Shown piece after piece: positions 50,023-58,232 of a stretch of DNA of 64,000 nt. The notes under the pieces are model-generated. The model was not told the DNA's origin. It saw only the letters and a program-made list of their open reading frames with translations, and did no database searches. The DNA comes from Solimonas fluminis (GTDB lineage Bacteria; Pseudomonadota; Gammaproteobacteria; Nevskiales; Nevskiaceae), in assembly GCF_002930645.1 (NCBI RefSeq), contig NZ_PSNW01000009.1:1-64000 (forward strand). Direction: 5' to 3'. Both the position numbers and the translations under genes were made by a program. The stretch's first letter is position 1. Every line of letters starts with the position of its first letter.

Positions 50023-50658
50023 TTGAATATCCTGCTGGTCGACGATCACGAGCTGTTCCGCGAAGGCATCAAGCTGCTGCTGGCCAACCTGGCGGAGGAC
50101 GTCGTCTTCGCCGAGGCGTCCAGCTGCACCGCCGCGCTGGCCCATCCGGGCGCTTCGCCGCTGGATGTGATCCTGCTGGACTTCCACCTGCCGGGCATGC
50201 ATGGCTTCGAGGCCCTGCGGGCGCTGCGCGAGCACTTCGAGCAGCCGGCCATCGTGGTGCTGTCGGCGGAGGAGAACCCGGCCCTGATCGTGCAGGCCAT
50301 CGATGAAGGCGCGGCGGGCTTCATCCCCAAGACCTCCAGCCACGCGGTGATGATGGCCGCGCTGCGCCTGGTGCTGGCCGGCGGCACCTACCTGCCCCCG
50401 CATGCCTTGCTCGGCTCGGCCTCGCCGGCCGCCGCCGTCGCCCAGCCCCAGGGCGACCTGCTGGCGGAACTGACGCCGCGCCAGCTGGAGACGCTGAGAC
50501 TGGCGATGCAGGGCAAGTCGAACAAGGTGATCGCCCGCGAGATGGATGTCTCCGAGGCGACGGTCAAGGCGCACCTGTCCGCGTCGTTCCGCGCCCTGGG
50601 CGTGCGCAACCGCACCGAGGCGGTCTTCTCGGCGGCGCGGCTCGGGCTAAAGATCTAG
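50023..50658 (+). CDS. NarL/LuxR-type response regulator
   Basis: This 211-residue protein has a receiver domain (acidic pair D7-D8, phospho-acceptor D53 in LLDFHLPG, Lys in IPKTSS) and a C-terminal LuxR-type HTH (LTPRQLETLRLAMQGKSN then VSEATVKAHLSASFRALGV, about residues 147-195). It starts with TTG behind a GGAGG Shine-Dalgarno. Its last 12 bases overlap, on the opposite strand, the end of the large fusion gene, and the hybrid kinase lies just beyond that gene. The likely partner is therefore that kinase, although this is inferred from position. Confidence 0.92.
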   Translation: MNILLVDDHELFREGIKLLLANLAEDVVFAEASSCTAALAHPGASPLDVILLDFHLPGMHGFEALRALREHFEQPAIVVLSAEENPALIVQAIDEGAAGFIPKTSSHAVMMAALRLVLAGGTYLPPHALLGSASPAAAVAQPQGDLLAELTPRQLETLRLAMQGKSNKVIAREMDVSEATVKAHLSASFRALGVRNRTEAVFSAARLGLKI

Positions 50659-53600
50659 CGTTTCCCGGACCACGCGGTCCGGCGGCTGCGCGCGCGGCTC
50701 GTCGGTGCTGAACTCGCAGTGCAGCTGCCAGCGCCCGGACGGCTGCGGCTGCAGCGACAGCTGCGTGAATCCGCTGCCGCTGTAGACCCGGCTGTCGATG
50801 TCGCATTCCCAGGGTCCATTCACGCCCTCGAAATGCAGCGTCTCGGCCTGCGCCAGCTCCGCCGCCTCGGCGTTGGCGAAGCGGTAGGGCGTGTTGAGCC
50901 CGGCCGTATGGATCGAATGCAGGACGATCGTCTCCGATCCCCCCGGGCGGCGCAGCCGCGCCGTCGTGAACAGGCCCAGGTGTTCGTCGCCGGACAGGAA
51001 CACCAGGCCGCGCAGCCGGTGCTCGCCGATCAGTTCGAGCAGCGACAGCAGGGTTTCCGGGTAGCCGTCCCAGCCGTCGGAACGACGGCAGGCTCGCAAC
51101 CCGGCATCCTGCTGGCCGAAGGCCAGACGTGCAGGCATGGCATAGCGGTGCCGGGGCAGCAGCACCGCCGGCGAGACGATCACCCGCGGACGGTCGCGCG
51201 GCCCCTGCAGCAGCCAATGGCGCAGGGCCTGCCACTGCTCGTCACCCAGCAGCCCCGCGGCGCCGAAGCCGATATCGCCATGCCTCCCCTGGCGACGGCT
51301 GCGGGTATCGAGCAGGAACACCGGGATGCCCTCGGCCTCGAAGGCGCGCCACAGCGGCTGAGCCAGCGTCTCCTCGGTGCTGTTCGTCCGGAGCAGGCGC
51401 TGGTAGCGCAGGAAATAGCGCAGACCGCGGTCGAGCATCTCGCGGCTGCGCTGCTGCGACGCCTCCGGCGCCTCGGGAGCCATCGGCTCCCAGTTGTCGT
51501 CGATCTCGTGATCGTCCGGCAGGCAGACCACCGGCACGCGCCCCAGCGCGCGGCGCACGCCACGGTTGCGCAGCCAGGCCTCGTAGGGCTTGCGGTAACG
51601 GTCGTCGGCCAGGGTCGGATCGAACAGGCCGGCGGTGGCGTCGGCGTAGATCTGGTCACCGGTCAGCACCAGCAACTGCGGCGGCGCCTCGCCGTCGAGG
51701 CGATCGTTGAGACGGTCCCAGGGCTGCACGGGGCAGCGCTCGTTGAGGATGCCCGGAGGATAGCCGCAGCTGCCCAGCGCCAGCCGCAGGCCGGCCGCCG
51801 CCGTCGGCGCGGGCAACTGCACCAGGCCCGGCGGACTGGGCGGCGCCGACTGGTTGATCTGCTCCACGGCCTTCTCGATCGCGTCGGCCATCGCCGTCGG
51901 CGCCAGGTCCTCGGGCGCGGGAGCCCGTTCCTGCCACAGCTTCTGTGCCGCGTTGCTGTCGCCCGGGTCGAAGGCCTTCTGGTTCATGCAGGGTGGTTGC
52001 GGATAGACCGGCAGCACCAGCAGCTGACGCACCTCCCCCTTCGCCCACCAGGGCAGATCGCGCGCGAACCAGTCGGTGTCGTGTTCACCCTCCAGCCGGA
52101 ACAGGACGTCGCCCGGTCCCAGGCCGAGGCGCTGCATCAGTTCCCCATAGCGCCAGCGTCCGTCGGCGTCGCGCTCCACCGGCAGCAGGCACAGGGCCTC
52201 GGGCCGGCCCAGCTGAGGGCTGGCGCCGAGGCCGAGCCGCAGCGAGTCATCCGGCTGGCGGTTCAGCATCGGCCCCAGCCAGGGCGCCTCGGCGACATAG
52301 GGACGCTGCGCCGGAGGCTGCGGCGGACGCGCCCGCTCCGGGGCCTCGAGGAAGTCCAGGATATGGGCGCAGGTCTCCCGGGCGCGGCGGCCGATCAGGC
52401 TGTCCTGGTGTCCCATGCCCGGGAGGATGCGCTTTTCCACCTCGCAGCCGGCGTCGCGCAGCACCGCCTCCGCGCGATGCGCCGTGGCGACGTCGGCCAG
52501 GCCGTTGTCCTGGCCGTGCAGCACCAGGGTCCGGAAGCGCCAGTGCGCCTGCAGCGCATCGCGCGAGACGAAGCGGTTGCGGCCGCCGCGGTCGGTGATG
52601 GTCTGGTGCTGCGTGAAATGGATGACCTGCGCCACGGTGTCGAGGTTGAGCGGGCCGAACAGGTCGTCGATATGGTCGAGCACCTCGTCGCTCAAGGCTC
52701 CCAGGGAGAAGGTGCGGCCGTAGATCGCGTCCATGCGGTGGCGCGAGGCGATGTACTCGCTGCGCCGCGGCAGGCAGGAATTCTCCTGCAGCAGTTCTTC
52801 GTCGGGATACGGCAGGCTGCCGAGGAAGCGGTCCAGCAGTTCCATGCCCAGGCCCTGCTCGGGATCGGGGCGGAAGTCGTAGCGCAGCGGGCCGAACATC
52901 TGCTCCAGGTAGGACATGACGTAGCCGCGGAAGATGTTCTGCTGGCTCATCACCATCACAGGGCCGTTCTGCGACAGCACGACGCGGCGCAGGCGCTGCG
53001 GCATGACGCGGCGCGCGGCGGCATGTCGGTCGGCGCCGCTGTCGGTGGACGGGCCGCGCGGGCGCAGCAGTCGCTCGACCTCGGCCGCCGTCTTGCCGGC
53101 GGACAGGATCGCCTGGCTCAGCATCGCCGCTCCCATGCAGTGCGCGATCACGTCCAGCGGACGCTGTCCGCTGCGCCACCAGATGTAGTCCACCGCCGCG
53201 GGAATGTCGTTGAGCGCCACCTGCTCGAAGGTCCAGGGCAGGCAGGCCGTGGGCAGGCCGGCGCTGCTGCGCAGGTCGGCCACCCAGACGTCGCGGCCAC
53301 TGTCGGCCAGGAAGGCCGCCAGGCCGGGCTTCAGCACCGGGTGGGCATAGCTGGTGCCGCTGGCGCTGTAGCCGTGGACCAGCAGCACCGGCGGCGGCGC
53401 GGCGGCGCCGACGCCCGCCCCGGGGTCACGGCGATAGCGCGCCAGGCGCAGCCGCAGCGGGGTGCCGGCGGCCTCGCCCAGGTCGAGCCAGTGGATTTCC
53501 GGTGCCGGCAGGCCCGGCAGCTTGCCCGGCAGGCGCTGCACCGGACGATGCCGCGGCGTATCCGGCTTGCGCAGGTTCCAGATATGGATGCCGAGCATCA

Positions 53601-56397
53601 GGCGCGTGAAATAGCCGGCCAGCGAGACGAAGTCGGCCAGCGCCTCGACATGGCAGTCCTGCGCCTCGATGCGCATCAGCGGGCGGCCGCGCGATGCCAG
53701 GTACTGCGGATCCAGGGTCAGCCGCCGCGGCCCTTCGAGCGGCGCGCCGAGTTGCGTCAGGGAAAGCTCCTGCAACTGGCGCCAGGGATTGCTGGGCCGC
53801 GCATAGGTGATGTGCTTGTGTCCGAGGACATGGCCGCCCACCAGAGCGCCGGGCTGGAAGCCTCCCGCCACGTCCGGCGGCGTCAGGTCCTCGACGATCT
53901 CCAGGCGATAGTCGAAGCGGCGGCATTCGCCGGCACGGCTGGCGAGCTTGAACATGCCCCGGATGCGGTCCAGCACGCCGGGGCCGCTGCTGCGCTCGCC
54001 GGCGGCGGCGTTCTGCGCCCAGGCGGCCAGGCTCAGCGCGGTATCGCGCAGCCCGCGGTTGCGCCACCAGGCCCAGGCACCGCGCGCGGTACGCCGCAGG
54101 AAACCGCTGTCCTCGCGCTCCATCACGGTCAGGCTGCCCTTGACGCGGTAGACGCGGGCCAGGCGCTGCTCCTGACGCAGGCGCTCCTCCGGGGACAGGG
54201 CCTGCGCCTGCAGGCGCTGCCAATCGCCCAGCGCGAAGATGCGCAGCTGTGCCGGGCCTTCGCCGCCGACCTCGAGGCGGGCCTGGCTCAGACGCCCCTC
54301 GCGGTCCGGACGAAACAGCTGGTCCAGGCGCAGCGGCCGGTAGCCCAGGGTCAGCTCCACCCAGCAATCACGATCCAGGCCATGGACGTCGCGCAGGCCG
54401 ACCGGCCCGGCGAGCCGTTCGCAGACCCCGACCCGCGTGCCGGCGCGCGGCAGCGCCGCGCGCTCGATGATGGCCCGCTCCACGTTCGCGAACTGCGGAC
54501 GGACGACCGGCGGCGCGACCGGCGGCGCCTGCGGCGGCAGGCAGTTCCAGTCGCGGCGCAATTCCCGCACGGCACGCAGCGCGACGGCGGCGATCGTCAG
54601 GCCCGGATTGGTGCCCAGGGCCGAGCAGAGGATGGCACCGTCCAGCACGGCCAGGCCCTCGTGCCAGGGTCGCTCCCGGCCGCTGCGCGCGGGATCGAAC
54701 ACGCGCCCGCAGTCGTCCACCACGCCGCGATGGACGTCATCGGCCATCGCACAGCCGCCGAGCGGGTGCACGCTGACCAGCGGACCCCGCGCGTCCTGCA
54801 CCAGGAAACCCATGGAATCCGGCAGGAAGCGCCACAGCGGGTTGGGCATGGTGCGGCCGCCGAAACCGGCCGCGGCTCGCAAGGCGTCGATACGCTGCAT
54901 CTGCGCGTCGAACAGGGGCCGCTGCGGCAGGCCCGGCCACACCACCGCGACGTGGCCGTCGCCCGTCTGCGAGGCTGCGTCGCCTTCGAGCTCCAGGCTG
55001 CCATCCGCACCGTCGTCGCCCATGGCGGCAAACACCGACATGTGCCGGATGCGCTCGCGGTGCACCGCGAAGGGATCGCCGGCCGGATGACCCTCGCGGT
55101 GCCGGCTGTCGTCGAACCGCCCGAGATCATGCAGGGTATTGGCGGTGGTGATGGATTCTTCCGCGGCGCGGCGCAGGGAACCGGGCACGGCCAGTTCCTC
55201 GATCACGATGGGCTGCGCCGCCAGCCCGGGCCGCGCCTCGATCTCGGCATCGACCACCGCGGTGATGGTGGGGCCGACACGGCGCTGTGCCGGCGGCTGG
55301 TCCTCGTCGGCCACGGCGTTGGCCTCGGCCTGGGGGCCATAGCCGTAGCCGAAGGCGATGAGATCGCCATTGCCGGAGAAGCGCTGCCCGAGCAGCGGCG
55401 AGAACAGGGCGCGCGCGCTGCGCTGCTGCGTGCGCAACAGGATTTCGCTGGAGCCCAGCGCTCCCGCCGCCAGGATCACCCGCCGCGCCGTCAGCCAGCG
55501 CGGCCCGGCGTCCTGCAGGCGCAGCTTCTCGTCGGTGTGCGCCAGTTCCAGGCTCCAGCAGGCGGAATCCGCGGCCGGCCGCTGCAGCCGCAGCACCGTG
55601 GCGCCGCACCAGATTTCGGCCTGCCGCCGGGCGGCCCGCACCAGCAGGTTGGTGTCGAGCGATTCCTTGGCCCCGTAGTTGCAGCCGGTGGCGCAGTCGC
55701 CGCAAAGCTTGCAGGCGGAGAGCTGCACGCCCTCCGCATTGACGCCATCGCGCATGGCCACCGTCACGGCCGCCTCGCGCAGGGCACCGCGGCCCATGAC
55801 GCCAAGCACGCGCGTCTTGGCCAGCGGCCGCTCCTTCAGCTCCGCATGCAGGCCGATGCGGTTGTCGGCGCCGCCATGGGCGGCGCCGAGCATTTCCTTG
55901 GCCTCGGCGTAGCTGGCGTCCAGTTCCCTGCGGCCGCGCAGGGCTTCGGGCCAGCGCGCGTCGAACACCTGGCGCCGCGGAATTTCCATGACGCCGGCAT
56001 TGATCAGGGAGCCGCCGCCGAGGCCGTTGGCCACCAGCACGCCGAGGTCGCGGCCGGCACGGATGTCGAACAGCCCCTCGCCGCCCTTGGTCCGGCCGGC
56101 GAAACTGCCGCGCAGCTGGGTCGGCAGGTCGGCCAGTTGCGAGGGGAAGGCTCCGGGCAGGTACTCGCGGCCGCGCTCCAGCACGCAGACCTTCAGCGGA
56201 CGGCCGTTCTCGGTGCAGCCAGCCAGTTCGGCCGCGGCGATCGCCCCGCCGTAGCCGCTGCCGACGATGACGACGTCGTAGGCCGGCTGCGGCGCCGGCT
56301 CGCGGCGGCATTTGTCCGGGTCGGCAAGCAGCTCGGCGAATTCACGCGAAAGCCACCGGCTGGACGCCCCCCCCGGCGCCGGCCGTGGCCGCGTCAT
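50647..56397 (-). CDS. Giant three-enzyme fusion: GMC oxidoreductase - alpha/beta hydrolase - PhoD-like phosphoesterase
   Basis: This is a 1,916-residue single polypeptide without signal peptide. Residues 1-590 form a cholesterol-oxidase-like GMC flavoprotein: FAD loop GSGYGG (46-51), the four-Cys motif C229-x2-C-x2-C-x3-C239, and HPLGGC (H544). Residues about 600-960 form a connecting region I cannot name. Residues about 960-1350 form an alpha/beta hydrolase: oxyanion HG (1008-1009), nucleophile position C1087 in AHCMGA (Cys instead of Ser), D1297 and H1330. Residues about 1500-1916 form a PhoD-like metallophosphoesterase: GDQIYAD (D1581), DDHE (1628-1631) and GDEH (to H1806). GMC-hydrolase fusions are known in bacteria; the third domain is unusual to me. 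The start overlaps the kinase stop (ATGA). The frame continues open into the kinase gene upstream but is out of frame there, so 56397 is the start. Substrate unknown; a sterol- or lipid-like ester is a guess. Confidence 0.9.
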   Translation of the reverse strand: MTRPRPAPGGASSRWLSREFAELLADPDKCRREPAPQPAYDVVIVGSGYGGAIAAAELAGCTENGRPLKVCVLERGREYLPGAFPSQLADLPTQLRGSFAGRTKGGEGLFDIRAGRDLGVLVANGLGGGSLINAGVMEIPRRQVFDARWPEALRGRRELDASYAEAKEMLGAAHGGADNRIGLHAELKERPLAKTRVLGVMGRGALREAAVTVAMRDGVNAEGVQLSACKLCGDCATGCNYGAKESLDTNLLVRAARRQAEIWCGATVLRLQRPAADSACWSLELAHTDEKLRLQDAGPRWLTARRVILAAGALGSSEILLRTQQRSARALFSPLLGQRFSGNGDLIAFGYGYGPQAEANAVADEDQPPAQRRVGPTITAVVDAEIEARPGLAAQPIVIEELAVPGSLRRAAEESITTANTLHDLGRFDDSRHREGHPAGDPFAVHRERIRHMSVFAAMGDDGADGSLELEGDAASQTGDGHVAVVWPGLPQRPLFDAQMQRIDALRAAAGFGGRTMPNPLWRFLPDSMGFLVQDARGPLVSVHPLGGCAMADDVHRGVVDDCGRVFDPARSGRERPWHEGLAVLDGAILCSALGTNPGLTIAAVALRAVRELRRDWNCLPPQAPPVAPPVVRPQFANVERAIIERAALPRAGTRVGVCERLAGPVGLRDVHGLDRDCWVELTLGYRPLRLDQLFRPDREGRLSQARLEVGGEGPAQLRIFALGDWQRLQAQALSPEERLRQEQRLARVYRVKGSLTVMEREDSGFLRRTARGAWAWWRNRGLRDTALSLAAWAQNAAAGERSSGPGVLDRIRGMFKLASRAGECRRFDYRLEIVEDLTPPDVAGGFQPGALVGGHVLGHKHITYARPSNPWRQLQELSLTQLGAPLEGPRRLTLDPQYLASRGRPLMRIEAQDCHVEALADFVSLAGYFTRLMLGIHIWNLRKPDTPRHRPVQRLPGKLPGLPAPEIHWLDLGEAAGTPLRLRLARYRRDPGAGVGAAAPPPVLLVHGYSASGTSYAHPVLKPGLAAFLADSGRDVWVADLRSSAGLPTACLPWTFEQVALNDIPAAVDYIWWRSGQRPLDVIAHCMGAAMLSQAILSAGKTAAEVERLLRPRGPSTDSGADRHAAARRVMPQRLRRVVLSQNGPVMVMSQQNIFRGYVMSYLEQMFGPLRYDFRPDPEQGLGMELLDRFLGSLPYPDEELLQENSCLPRRSEYIASRHRMDAIYGRTFSLGALSDEVLDHIDDLFGPLNLDTVAQVIHFTQHQTITDRGGRNRFVSRDALQAHWRFRTLVLHGQDNGLADVATAHRAEAVLRDAGCEVEKRILPGMGHQDSLIGRRARETCAHILDFLEAPERARPPQPPAQRPYVAEAPWLGPMLNRQPDDSLRLGLGASPQLGRPEALCLLPVERDADGRWRYGELMQRLGLGPGDVLFRLEGEHDTDWFARDLPWWAKGEVRQLLVLPVYPQPPCMNQKAFDPGDSNAAQKLWQERAPAPEDLAPTAMADAIEKAVEQINQSAPPSPPGLVQLPAPTAAAGLRLALGSCGYPPGILNERCPVQPWDRLNDRLDGEAPPQLLVLTGDQIYADATAGLFDPTLADDRYRKPYEAWLRNRGVRRALGRVPVVCLPDDHEIDDNWEPMAPEAPEASQQRSREMLDRGLRYFLRYQRLLRTNSTEETLAQPLWRAFEAEGIPVFLLDTRSRRQGRHGDIGFGAAGLLGDEQWQALRHWLLQGPRDRPRVIVSPAVLLPRHRYAMPARLAFGQQDAGLRACRRSDGWDGYPETLLSLLELIGEHRLRGLVFLSGDEHLGLFTTARLRRPGGSETIVLHSIHTAGLNTPYRFANAEAAELAQAETLHFEGVNGPWECDIDSRVYSGSGFTQLSLQPQPSGRWQLHCEFSTDEPRAQPPDRVVRETLDL

Positions 56398-58232
56398 TCG
56401 TTGACGGCCTTGAGGATGGATTCGCGCAGGGTCATGGCATTGACCGGCTTGTGCAGCAGCTCGACGCCGGCATCGCGCGCCTCGCGAAGCCGGTCCGGAG
56501 CGGTGTCGCCGCTGATCAGCAGGGCCGGCAGCTCGGGCCAGGTCTCGCGCAGCGCGCGGATCGTGCGGATGCCGTTGTCCTCCCCGCGCAGGCGGAAATC
56601 GGCCAGGACGATGGAGGGCGTGAAGTCGCGCGCCTTCTCCACCGCCGCCGCCGTGGACGCGGCGGTCTCGACGGTGAAGCCCATTTCCTCCAGCAGGGTC
56701 TGCATGCCCAGGCGGATGGCTTCCTCGTCGTCGATCACCAGCACCTGCACGTGGCGCCACAGCGGCCCGGCCGGCATGGTGGCTTCCGCTGCGGGCAGCC
56801 CCGGGCTGCGCGTCACCGGGATATCCACGGAGAAACGGCTGCCCCGGCCGGGCACGGAGGCCAGCTTGAGGTCGATGTCGAGCAGTTCGGTCAGGCGGCG
56901 CACGATCGCCAGGCCCAGGCCCAGGCCCTTGCTGCGATCGCGCTCCGGATTGTTGAGCTGGTAGAACTCCTCGAACACCCGCTCCTGCTCGGATTCGGGA
57001 ATCCCCGGACCGGTGTCCGAGACGCTGATACGCAGCTTGTCGTCGAGCGGCTCCACCGACAGGTCGACGCTCCCCTGCTCGGTGTACTTGATGGCATTGG
57101 ACAGCAGGTTGCGCAGGATCCGCTGCAGCAGCATGGGATCGGTACGCACCACGCTGCCGGACAGGCCCTGCAGGGTCAGGCGCAAGCCCTTGCGATCGGC
57201 CTGCGGCTGGAATTCGTCCACCAGTTGCGACAGCAGGGCTGGCAGATCGACGCTGGAGATGGAGCGCTCGATCACGCCGGCATCCAGGCGCGAGATGTCG
57301 AGCAGCGCGTCGAGCTGCGAGGCCAGAGACTTGACGGCCTTGTCGATCTGCTCGGCGATGGCGGCGGTGCGGGCATCCATCGGCCGCAGCAGCAGCGAGC
57401 CACTGAACAGCGACAGCGCGTGGATCGGCTGGCGCAGGTCGTGGCTGGCCGAGGCCAGGAATCGCGTCTTGGCGCGGTTGGCCGTCTCGGCATTGCCGAG
57501 GGCGGAGCGCAGCTTGCGGTTGAGTTCCACGCGCTGCTGTCGGATGTTGTAGGACTCCATAAACACTCCGTAGACCCCTCGGGCGTGGCTCAGCATGGTG
57601 GTGATGTAGACCAGGATCAGCCCGGCGAACAGCAGCCGCTCGAACACCGCGACGTCGGCCACCGGCGTCAGCGTCCAGACCACGCCGACCGGCACCATCA
57701 TCACCAGGACATAGGGCAGGCAGACGCGCTGGTAGCCGGCGGTGGACTGGATCGTGGCGGAGCAGACGCCGACCACGTAGATCGTCACGATGGCGCCGAT
57801 CAGGACCGGCATCAGCGGAAAGAACAGCACGACCAGCGCCTGCACCGCGCCGGTTCCCAGGAACAGTGCCGAGGCCAGACCCAGCTTGGCCTCGTCGGAG
57901 CGGCTGCGATCCTCGGGCAGGCCGAGCAGCACGTGCGTCCGCAGGGCCACCGCCGCGATCACCACCGCCAGCCACAGCAGCGGCAGGACCGGCGAGACGT
58001 AGTAGGACAGCAGGGCAGCCATCAGCACGCTGGTGAGATAGCGCTGCAGCGGGATGCGCCGCGCCTGCTGGGCCATCAGCAGCACCAGTTCGCCCTGCAG
58101 GGAGCGCAGCTCGGCATCCCGTTCCCGCAGTTCGACAGGTAGGTGCGACATGCCCAAGTCCGTGGCGCTCCGGCTGGATGAATTGGCGTCTTTCAACGCT
58201 ACCGCTCCCGGCTCCTCGCGACCATTAGCCAT
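56394..58232 (-). CDS. Membrane-bound hybrid histidine kinase
   Basis: This 612-residue protein has an N-terminal membrane domain with about six TM helices (residues 60-220, no obvious periplasmic sensor), HisKA with H264 in ASHDLRQPIHALS, HATPase with NLLSNAIKYT, DTGPGIP and GLGLGLAIV, and a C-terminal receiver with D545 in VLADFRLRG. It starts with an ATG behind a G-rich Shine-Dalgarno. The stop overlaps the start of the fusion gene, so sensor and enzyme are made together. The divergent gene is crp. Confidence 0.92.
   Translation of the reverse strand: MANGREEPGAVALKDANSSSRSATDLGMSHLPVELRERDAELRSLQGELVLLMAQQARRIPLQRYLTSVLMAALLSYYVSPVLPLLWLAVVIAAVALRTHVLLGLPEDRSRSDEAKLGLASALFLGTGAVQALVVLFFPLMPVLIGAIVTIYVVGVCSATIQSTAGYQRVCLPYVLVMMVPVGVVWTLTPVADVAVFERLLFAGLILVYITTMLSHARGVYGVFMESYNIRQQRVELNRKLRSALGNAETANRAKTRFLASASHDLRQPIHALSLFSGSLLLRPMDARTAAIAEQIDKAVKSLASQLDALLDISRLDAGVIERSISSVDLPALLSQLVDEFQPQADRKGLRLTLQGLSGSVVRTDPMLLQRILRNLLSNAIKYTEQGSVDLSVEPLDDKLRISVSDTGPGIPESEQERVFEEFYQLNNPERDRSKGLGLGLAIVRRLTELLDIDLKLASVPGRGSRFSVDIPVTRSPGLPAAEATMPAGPLWRHVQVLVIDDEEAIRLGMQTLLEEMGFTVETAASTAAAVEKARDFTPSIVLADFRLRGEDNGIRTIRALRETWPELPALLISGDTAPDRLREARDAGVELLHKPVNAMTLRESILKAVNE

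Follow-up and report, generated by a model that had tools for sequence, protein, structure and literature searches.

Why would a bacterium carry one cytoplasmic polypeptide that joins a GMC oxidoreductase, an alpha/beta hydrolase and a PhoD-like phosphoesterase? The question is raised by a long open reading frame (ORF) in Solimonas fluminis, found in a 64,000-nucleotide stretch of contig NZ_PSNW01000009.1 (the window). A preliminary description of this DNA claimed a 1,916-residue fusion of these three enzymes, thought that the third domain and the connector looked new and suggested that one substrate might be handed along the chain. The frame, its domains, its relatives and its neighbours were analysed here.

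The fusion gene is intact

50647..56397, minus strand: three-enzyme fusion ORF, 1916 aa, ATG at 56397, stop at 50649-50647

The claimed fusion is real and lies on the minus strand, which the preliminary description did not state. The frame has zero internal stops, and its product gives Pfam matches over the gathering cut-offs to GMC_oxred_N (residues 121-322), GMC_oxred_C (542-606), Abhydrolase_1 (1002-1096) and PhoD (1572-1867). The resulting order is GMC oxidoreductase, folded connector, acid-lipase-like hydrolase and PhoD, the last made up of an Ig-like N-domain and a catalytic core. The start at ATG 56397 is supported by its overlap with the upstream kinase gene, as ATGA, and by the alignment of two congeners with the fusion from residue 1. 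Both congeners (83% and 74% identity) keep the fusion as one continuous ORF, so a local frameshift between the parts, a hazard named beforehand, is ruled out as its source. A third congener, Solimonas sp. SE-A11, carries the fusion as two overlapping ORFs because small indels interrupt the linker at about residues 1352-1365. No signal peptide or hydrophobic signal was found at the N-terminus as read, and the view of three catalytic units in one signal-less polypeptide was borne out. A 2081-residue open frame runs antisense to the fusion on the plus strand (window 50719-56964); it is a GC-rich shadow with no gene evidence.

The GMC domain carries a cysteine loop

54538..56289, minus strand: GMC oxidoreductase domain, residues 37-620 (Pfam, Foldseek, VIA)
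54768-54766 and 54609-54607, minus strand: catalytic pair His544/Asn597 of the GMC domain (alignment)
55681..55713, minus strand: CxxCxxCxxxC loop, Cys229/232/235/239, proposed Fe-S site (alignment, literature comparison)

Membership of the GMC family is indicated by scores above cut-off for both PF00732 and PF05199 and by conservation of G46/G48/G50 and E74. H544 and N597 are present in 85/85 aligned rows, and both align to the catalytic pair of cholesterol oxidase. That enzyme was the nearest match in profile searches (E about 1e-36) and in Foldseek (E 5e-24, TMt 0.76); in VIA, fructose dehydrogenase aligned with Z 36 (rmsd 3.6-3.7, about 477 residues) and cholesterol oxidase with Z 33.4 (rmsd 2.9, 456 residues). 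The domain is not a cholesterol oxidase proper by the equivalog model, scoring 146 bits against a cut-off of 850 (NCBIfam NF058674). A stand-alone GMC paralogue, a 553-aa open frame about 31% identical to the GMC domain, lies elsewhere in the same genome (G000:C1:646248-647837).

By alignment, cholesterol oxidase lacks the loop spaced C229-x2-C232-x2-C235-x3-C239. Conservation of this loop among the 80 loci described below is partly built in, because the scan that found them used the peptides SLINAGVM and CGDCATGC. Its cysteines are also present in two-domain relatives from Rhizobium, Leptospira and Azospirillum, which were found without use of the motif. In the FAD glucose dehydrogenase of Burkholderia, a 3Fe-4S cluster is bound by Cys212, Cys218 and Cys222 and lies at 12-13 A from FAD N5 (PMC6719666). 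By analogy, the loop of the fusion may bind an Fe-S cluster, and its resemblance to the Fe-S loop of this enzyme suggests dehydrogenase rather than oxidase chemistry. The four cysteines could instead bind zinc or be structural.

A folded connector leads to a cysteine hydrolase

53533..54537, minus strand: connector domain, residues 621-955 (AF2 model, hydropathy)
52333..53520, minus strand: acid-lipase-like alpha/beta hydrolase, residues 960-1355 (structure and alignment)
53137..53139, minus strand: Cys1087, nucleophile position in AHCMG (alignment, 85/85 rows)
52408..52410, minus strand: His1330, catalytic His of the hydrolase in GHQD (83/83 filled rows)
52504..52506, minus strand: Asn1298, conserved, in the loop normally holding the catalytic acid (80/83 filled rows)

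The connector had been described as unnamed, which holds insofar as Pfam and PDB profile searches returned no sequence match; the correction needed is that AF2 confidently predicts a folded domain (pLDDT about 90, blocks mostly 87-97). In the model a long helix links two beta-rich units, and hydropathy places a conserved hydrophobic helix near residues 916-942. The connector is conserved among 40 sequences. Structure searches used a 975-residue model, for which the GMC domain filled the matches, none of them informative on the connector.

That the hydrolase is an ordinary serine esterase was not supported. In VIA, its fold aligned with lysosomal acid lipase (Z 32.6, 326 residues, rmsd 3.0) and gastric lipase (Z 31.4). 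The GHSQG of the lipases aligns with AHCMG of the fusion, and the nucleophile is therefore Cys1087. The Ser of GHSxG is absent, being replaced by Cys in all 85 aligned rows, and HC also stands in six GMC-linked relatives that came from a second, independent set of genomes. The acid loop (HGxxN) has no invariant acid at position 1302 in the aligned rows. The domain could instead be inactive or regulatory.

The PhoD part is complete and apparently cytoplasmic

51808..52302, minus strand: PhoD Ig-like N-terminal domain, residues about 1366-1530 (2yeq aligned over 1366-1916)
50797..51780, minus strand: PhoD catalytic domain, residues 1540-1867 (Pfam, alignment)

The PhoD structure 2yeq aligns over residues 1366-1916, N-terminal domain included (VIA Z 29.9), and the stretch before the Pfam match is PhoD's own N-terminal domain. 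The ten active-site positions of Ramlibacter and Bacillus subtilis PhoD read C,D,Y,D,D,H,N,D/N,D,H (PMC5768637). They correspond in the fusion to C1544, D1581, Y1584, D1628, D1629, H1630, D1634, N1635, D1804 and H1806, the sole departure being N to D at 1634, and all except 1634 are kept in at least 95% of rows. The statement that all key motifs are present thus stands for the GMC and PhoD parts, and for the hydrolase only with Ser replaced by Cys. The PhoD already known is an exported protein with Fe3+ and two Ca2+ bound (PMC4223295). The Tat-dependent, extracytoplasmic trait is missing here, as the PhoD part is C-terminal in a chain that lacks an N-terminal hydrophobic signal. Free Ca2+ is scarce in the cytoplasm.

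The three parts occur as one gene or two

A named genome collection was scanned with a six-member profile, giving 158 relatives, the best 80 of which were taken as loci. These 80 come from alpha-, beta- and gammaproteobacteria, with carriers in Solimonas, Fontimonas, Cellvibrionaceae, Arenicella, Massilia, Janthinobacterium, Ramlibacter, Roseateles, Aquabacterium, Ensifer, Mesorhizobium, Bradyrhizobium and Ruegeria. The fusion is therefore not unique to this genome. Nor is its third domain new, as had been supposed, since dozens of proteobacteria have the PhoD part. When four loci from relatives of the window genome were added to the 80, a set that includes one duplicated genome pair (L032/L035), 43 were one-gene, with all three enzymes in one protein, 36 were two-gene and 5 were partial owing to contig ends or other incompleteness. 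The two-gene form consists of a GMC-connector-hydrolase gene followed by an adjacent PhoD gene on the same strand; throughout these split loci, L083 excepted, GMC, connector and hydrolase stay in one ORF. On a FastTree phylogeny of the shared part, which has some long branches, fused and split forms switched at least 8 times. The linkage of the parts is kept across the three classes, whether by fusion or by adjacency. In a draw of 398 Pseudomonadota genomes, the genome of the window and a single further one were alone in having the long type, which is thus rare though widespread. The fusion is the one-gene form of a widespread and apparently unstudied operon.

A shorter, PhoD-less two-domain relative (about 1100-1170 aa) occurs in Leptospira, Rhizobium, Azospirillum and Bernardetia. 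On the Leptospira borgpetersenii plasmid lbp2 its surroundings include genes for a hybrid sensor kinase and for a sphingomyelin phosphodiesterase (L026:1000-13327). On a Rhizobium leguminosarum plasmid a two-domain GMC-Cys-hydrolase adjoins a small SRPBCC gene, a CoA-transferase and class III phaC/phaE (L025:288-11473). In Azospirillum oryzae a metallophosphoesterase is encoded directly upstream of the two-domain form (L027:6137-7951), possibly an independent phosphoesterase pairing; it is not homologous to PhoD and was rejected as a Rosetta-stone partner.

The conserved neighbours are signalling genes

56394..58232, minus strand: hybrid histidine kinase, 612 aa, about 6 TM segments, HisKA, HATPase and REC; its TGA overlaps the fusion ATG
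50023..50658, plus strand: LuxR-type response regulator, 211 aa, REC and GerE; convergent, with a 12-bp overlap with the fusion 3' end

The upstream kinase spans the membrane with about six helices and has hardly any extracytoplasmic domain. Among loci with enough upstream sequence to be counted, a kinase with a related sensor region lies directly upstream in 12/15 gammaproteobacterial and 31/40 betaproteobacterial cases and elsewhere in the locus in 8 more from betaproteobacteria, so that about 50/55 beta and gamma cases have such a kinase in the locus. A LuxR-type regulator was found in 8/15 and 21/40, respectively. Between the window and the distant relatives L031 and L033, with 20 kb compared, kinase, fusion and regulator are the only shared genes. 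This kinase is absent from all alphaproteobacterial loci; in its stead a gene resembling soluble adenylyl cyclase adjoins the fusion in 16/18, usually divergently. The encoded protein has roughly 1350 residues with cyclase and AAA ATPase domains, and two cyclase regions are suggested. L064:5642-9679 and L024:5618-9628 are examples that diverge from the fusion gene. PADLOC gave no match for the fusion and only weak generic matches for kinase, regulator and cyclase domains; an anti-phage defence role was discarded, given that the fusion has no PADLOC match.

That regulators persist, and that they differ in kind between bacterial classes, suggests a role in a response and not in a nutrient pathway. 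Gene linkage of this sort is evidence of shared regulation or context, not of a shared substrate.

Competing interpretations

In the reading we favour, to which we assign a probability of about 0.45, a conserved cytoplasmic enzyme system here takes the form of a single chain, and its production is coupled to a membrane-sensing phosphorelay. Most likely the fusion is an enzyme of the cytoplasm under signal control, with a lipid-like alcohol or phosphodiester as its substrate. That the three activities belong together is argued by a gene order and adjacency that persist, fused or not. It is reasonable to guess at a hydrophobic alcohol or ester, since the relatives of two domains, cholesterol oxidase on one side and gastric and lysosomal acid lipase on the other, act on sterols and their esters; the enzymatic guess of the preliminary description was likewise reasonable. 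Against the favoured reading stand the export of known PhoD enzymes and their use of Ca2+, and the lack of conserved lipid or steroid genes in the neighbourhood.

The favoured reading could operate as follows. The kinase would sense a membrane or intramembrane signal, and its REC domain, together with the LuxR regulator, would switch on the kinase-fusion operon. The GMC domain may then oxidise a bulky lipid-like alcohol and hand the electrons from FAD on to a carrier by way of an Fe-S cluster bound at the Cys loop; since electrons would leave by this proposed route, it would act as a dehydrogenase rather than an H2O2-making oxidase. The acid-lipase-like domain would form an acyl-thioester on Cys1087, with His1330 and with Asn1298 in place of the acid, and hydrolyse or transfer the acyl group. 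PhoD would cleave a phosphodiester, either of this molecule or of a partner, so that all three steps take place at one site. Both the sequence of the three steps and the lipid nature of the substrate are our inference.

An unlikely alternative is that the three activities work on different molecules in one stress response, such as membrane repair or phosphate scavenging, and are joined for co-regulation only. The interchange of fused and split forms indicates that covalent linkage is dispensable, and the shared two-component or cyclase neighbours also speak for it. However, the single GMC-connector-hydrolase ORF of the split loci, with L083 as the exception, and the well-folded, conserved connector favour a physical role, at least for GMC and hydrolase.

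Distinctly unlikely is the kind of fusion proposed in the preliminary description, a catabolic one for a sterol-ester or lipid-phosphoester, in which the hydrolase frees the alcohol, the GMC domain oxidises it and PhoD removes the phosphate. Although the nearest structures, cholesterol oxidase and lysosomal acid lipase/cholesteryl ester hydrolase, agree with it, a Ser to Cys change is unusual in a digestive-type lipase, and many carriers, among them Mesorhizobium, Massilia and Roseateles, are to our knowledge not noted steroid users. Moreover, the conserved neighbours are signal-transduction genes, and no catabolic, transporter or regulator gene of lipid or steroid breakdown is conserved at the 80 loci, which speaks against the earlier picture of a free-standing catabolic enzyme.

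It is quite improbable that the domain is no hydrolase but an acyltransferase, resembling PHA synthases or thioesterases, to which the GMC step supplies acyl groups for loading or transfer. In its favour, PHA synthases have a Cys nucleophile in a lipase-like box, as does the fusion (Cys1087), PhaC structures align with the hydrolase (Z about 24, about 290 residues) and the Rhizobium two-domain relative sits beside phaC/phaE. Against it, the Cys trait is not confined to PHA synthases, the alignment with acid lipases is far better (Z 32.6), Z 23-25 is common to many ordinary hydrolases, the phaC neighbour is a single case and no PHA synthase family is among the Pfam/NCBIfam matches of the fusion.

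Under the favoured reading, what looked like an isolated fusion becomes one member of a defined family, which has conserved regulators and occurs naturally in one-gene and two-gene versions. The reading carries two chemical predictions, Fe-S-linked oxidation and cysteine-based acyl chemistry in an acid-lipase fold, and its signalling link suggests a regulated lipid response, as yet nameless. The many relatives detract from the novelty first claimed for the fusion, and the signalling link, the likely Fe-S site and the Cys nucleophile add to it. A search of the open-access literature found no description of a GMC+PhoD, GMC+hydrolase or GMC+kinase system; the mineral-weathering GMC enzyme of Collimonas is a three-subunit glucose enzyme and not the same system. 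It is a tentative and somewhat doubtful proposal that the locus encodes an undescribed signal-gated lipid-processing system, in which an Fe-S GMC dehydrogenase, an acyl hydrolase or transferase with acid-lipase fold and Cys nucleophile and a cytoplasmic PhoD would act on one substrate under the control of a dedicated membrane phosphorelay in beta- and gammaproteobacteria and of a protein resembling soluble adenylyl cyclase in alphaproteobacteria.

Comparison with known systems

Cholesterol oxidases are exported single-domain oxidases. Those of class I, with non-covalent FAD (1b4v, 1coy), have the GMC fold and the His/Asn pair in common with the fusion but not its CxxCxxCxxxC loop. The GMC fold is likewise shared with Fe-S GMC dehydrogenases, namely the alpha subunit of the Burkholderia glucose dehydrogenase (BcGDH; 6a2u) and the large subunit of fructose dehydrogenase (8jej). 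The likeness of the fusion loop to that of BcGDH is one of spacing, C-x3-C-x3-A as in Cys218/Cys222/Ala226. These dehydrogenases use three Cys for a 3Fe-4S cluster and have separate small and cytochrome subunits, whereas the fusion has a four-Cys, ferredoxin-like spacing and no small or cytochrome subunits nearby.

Two-domain GMC-hydrolases, annotated 'alpha/beta fold hydrolase', combine a Cys-loop GMC with a Cys-type hydrolase as the fusion does. Their connector, however, is about 150-200 residues shorter, and the loci read contain neither a PhoD domain nor a homologous PhoD neighbour. Gastric and lysosomal acid lipases (1hlg, 6v7n) share the whole fold of the fusion hydrolase, cap region included, but are secreted rather than fused and use a Ser nucleophile in place of the invariant Cys1087. 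PhoD (2yeq) has the Ig-like N-domain, catalytic core and active-site residues in common with the fusion, whose PhoD part differs in having no Tat signal and in being fused to, or encoded directly behind, a GMC-hydrolase.
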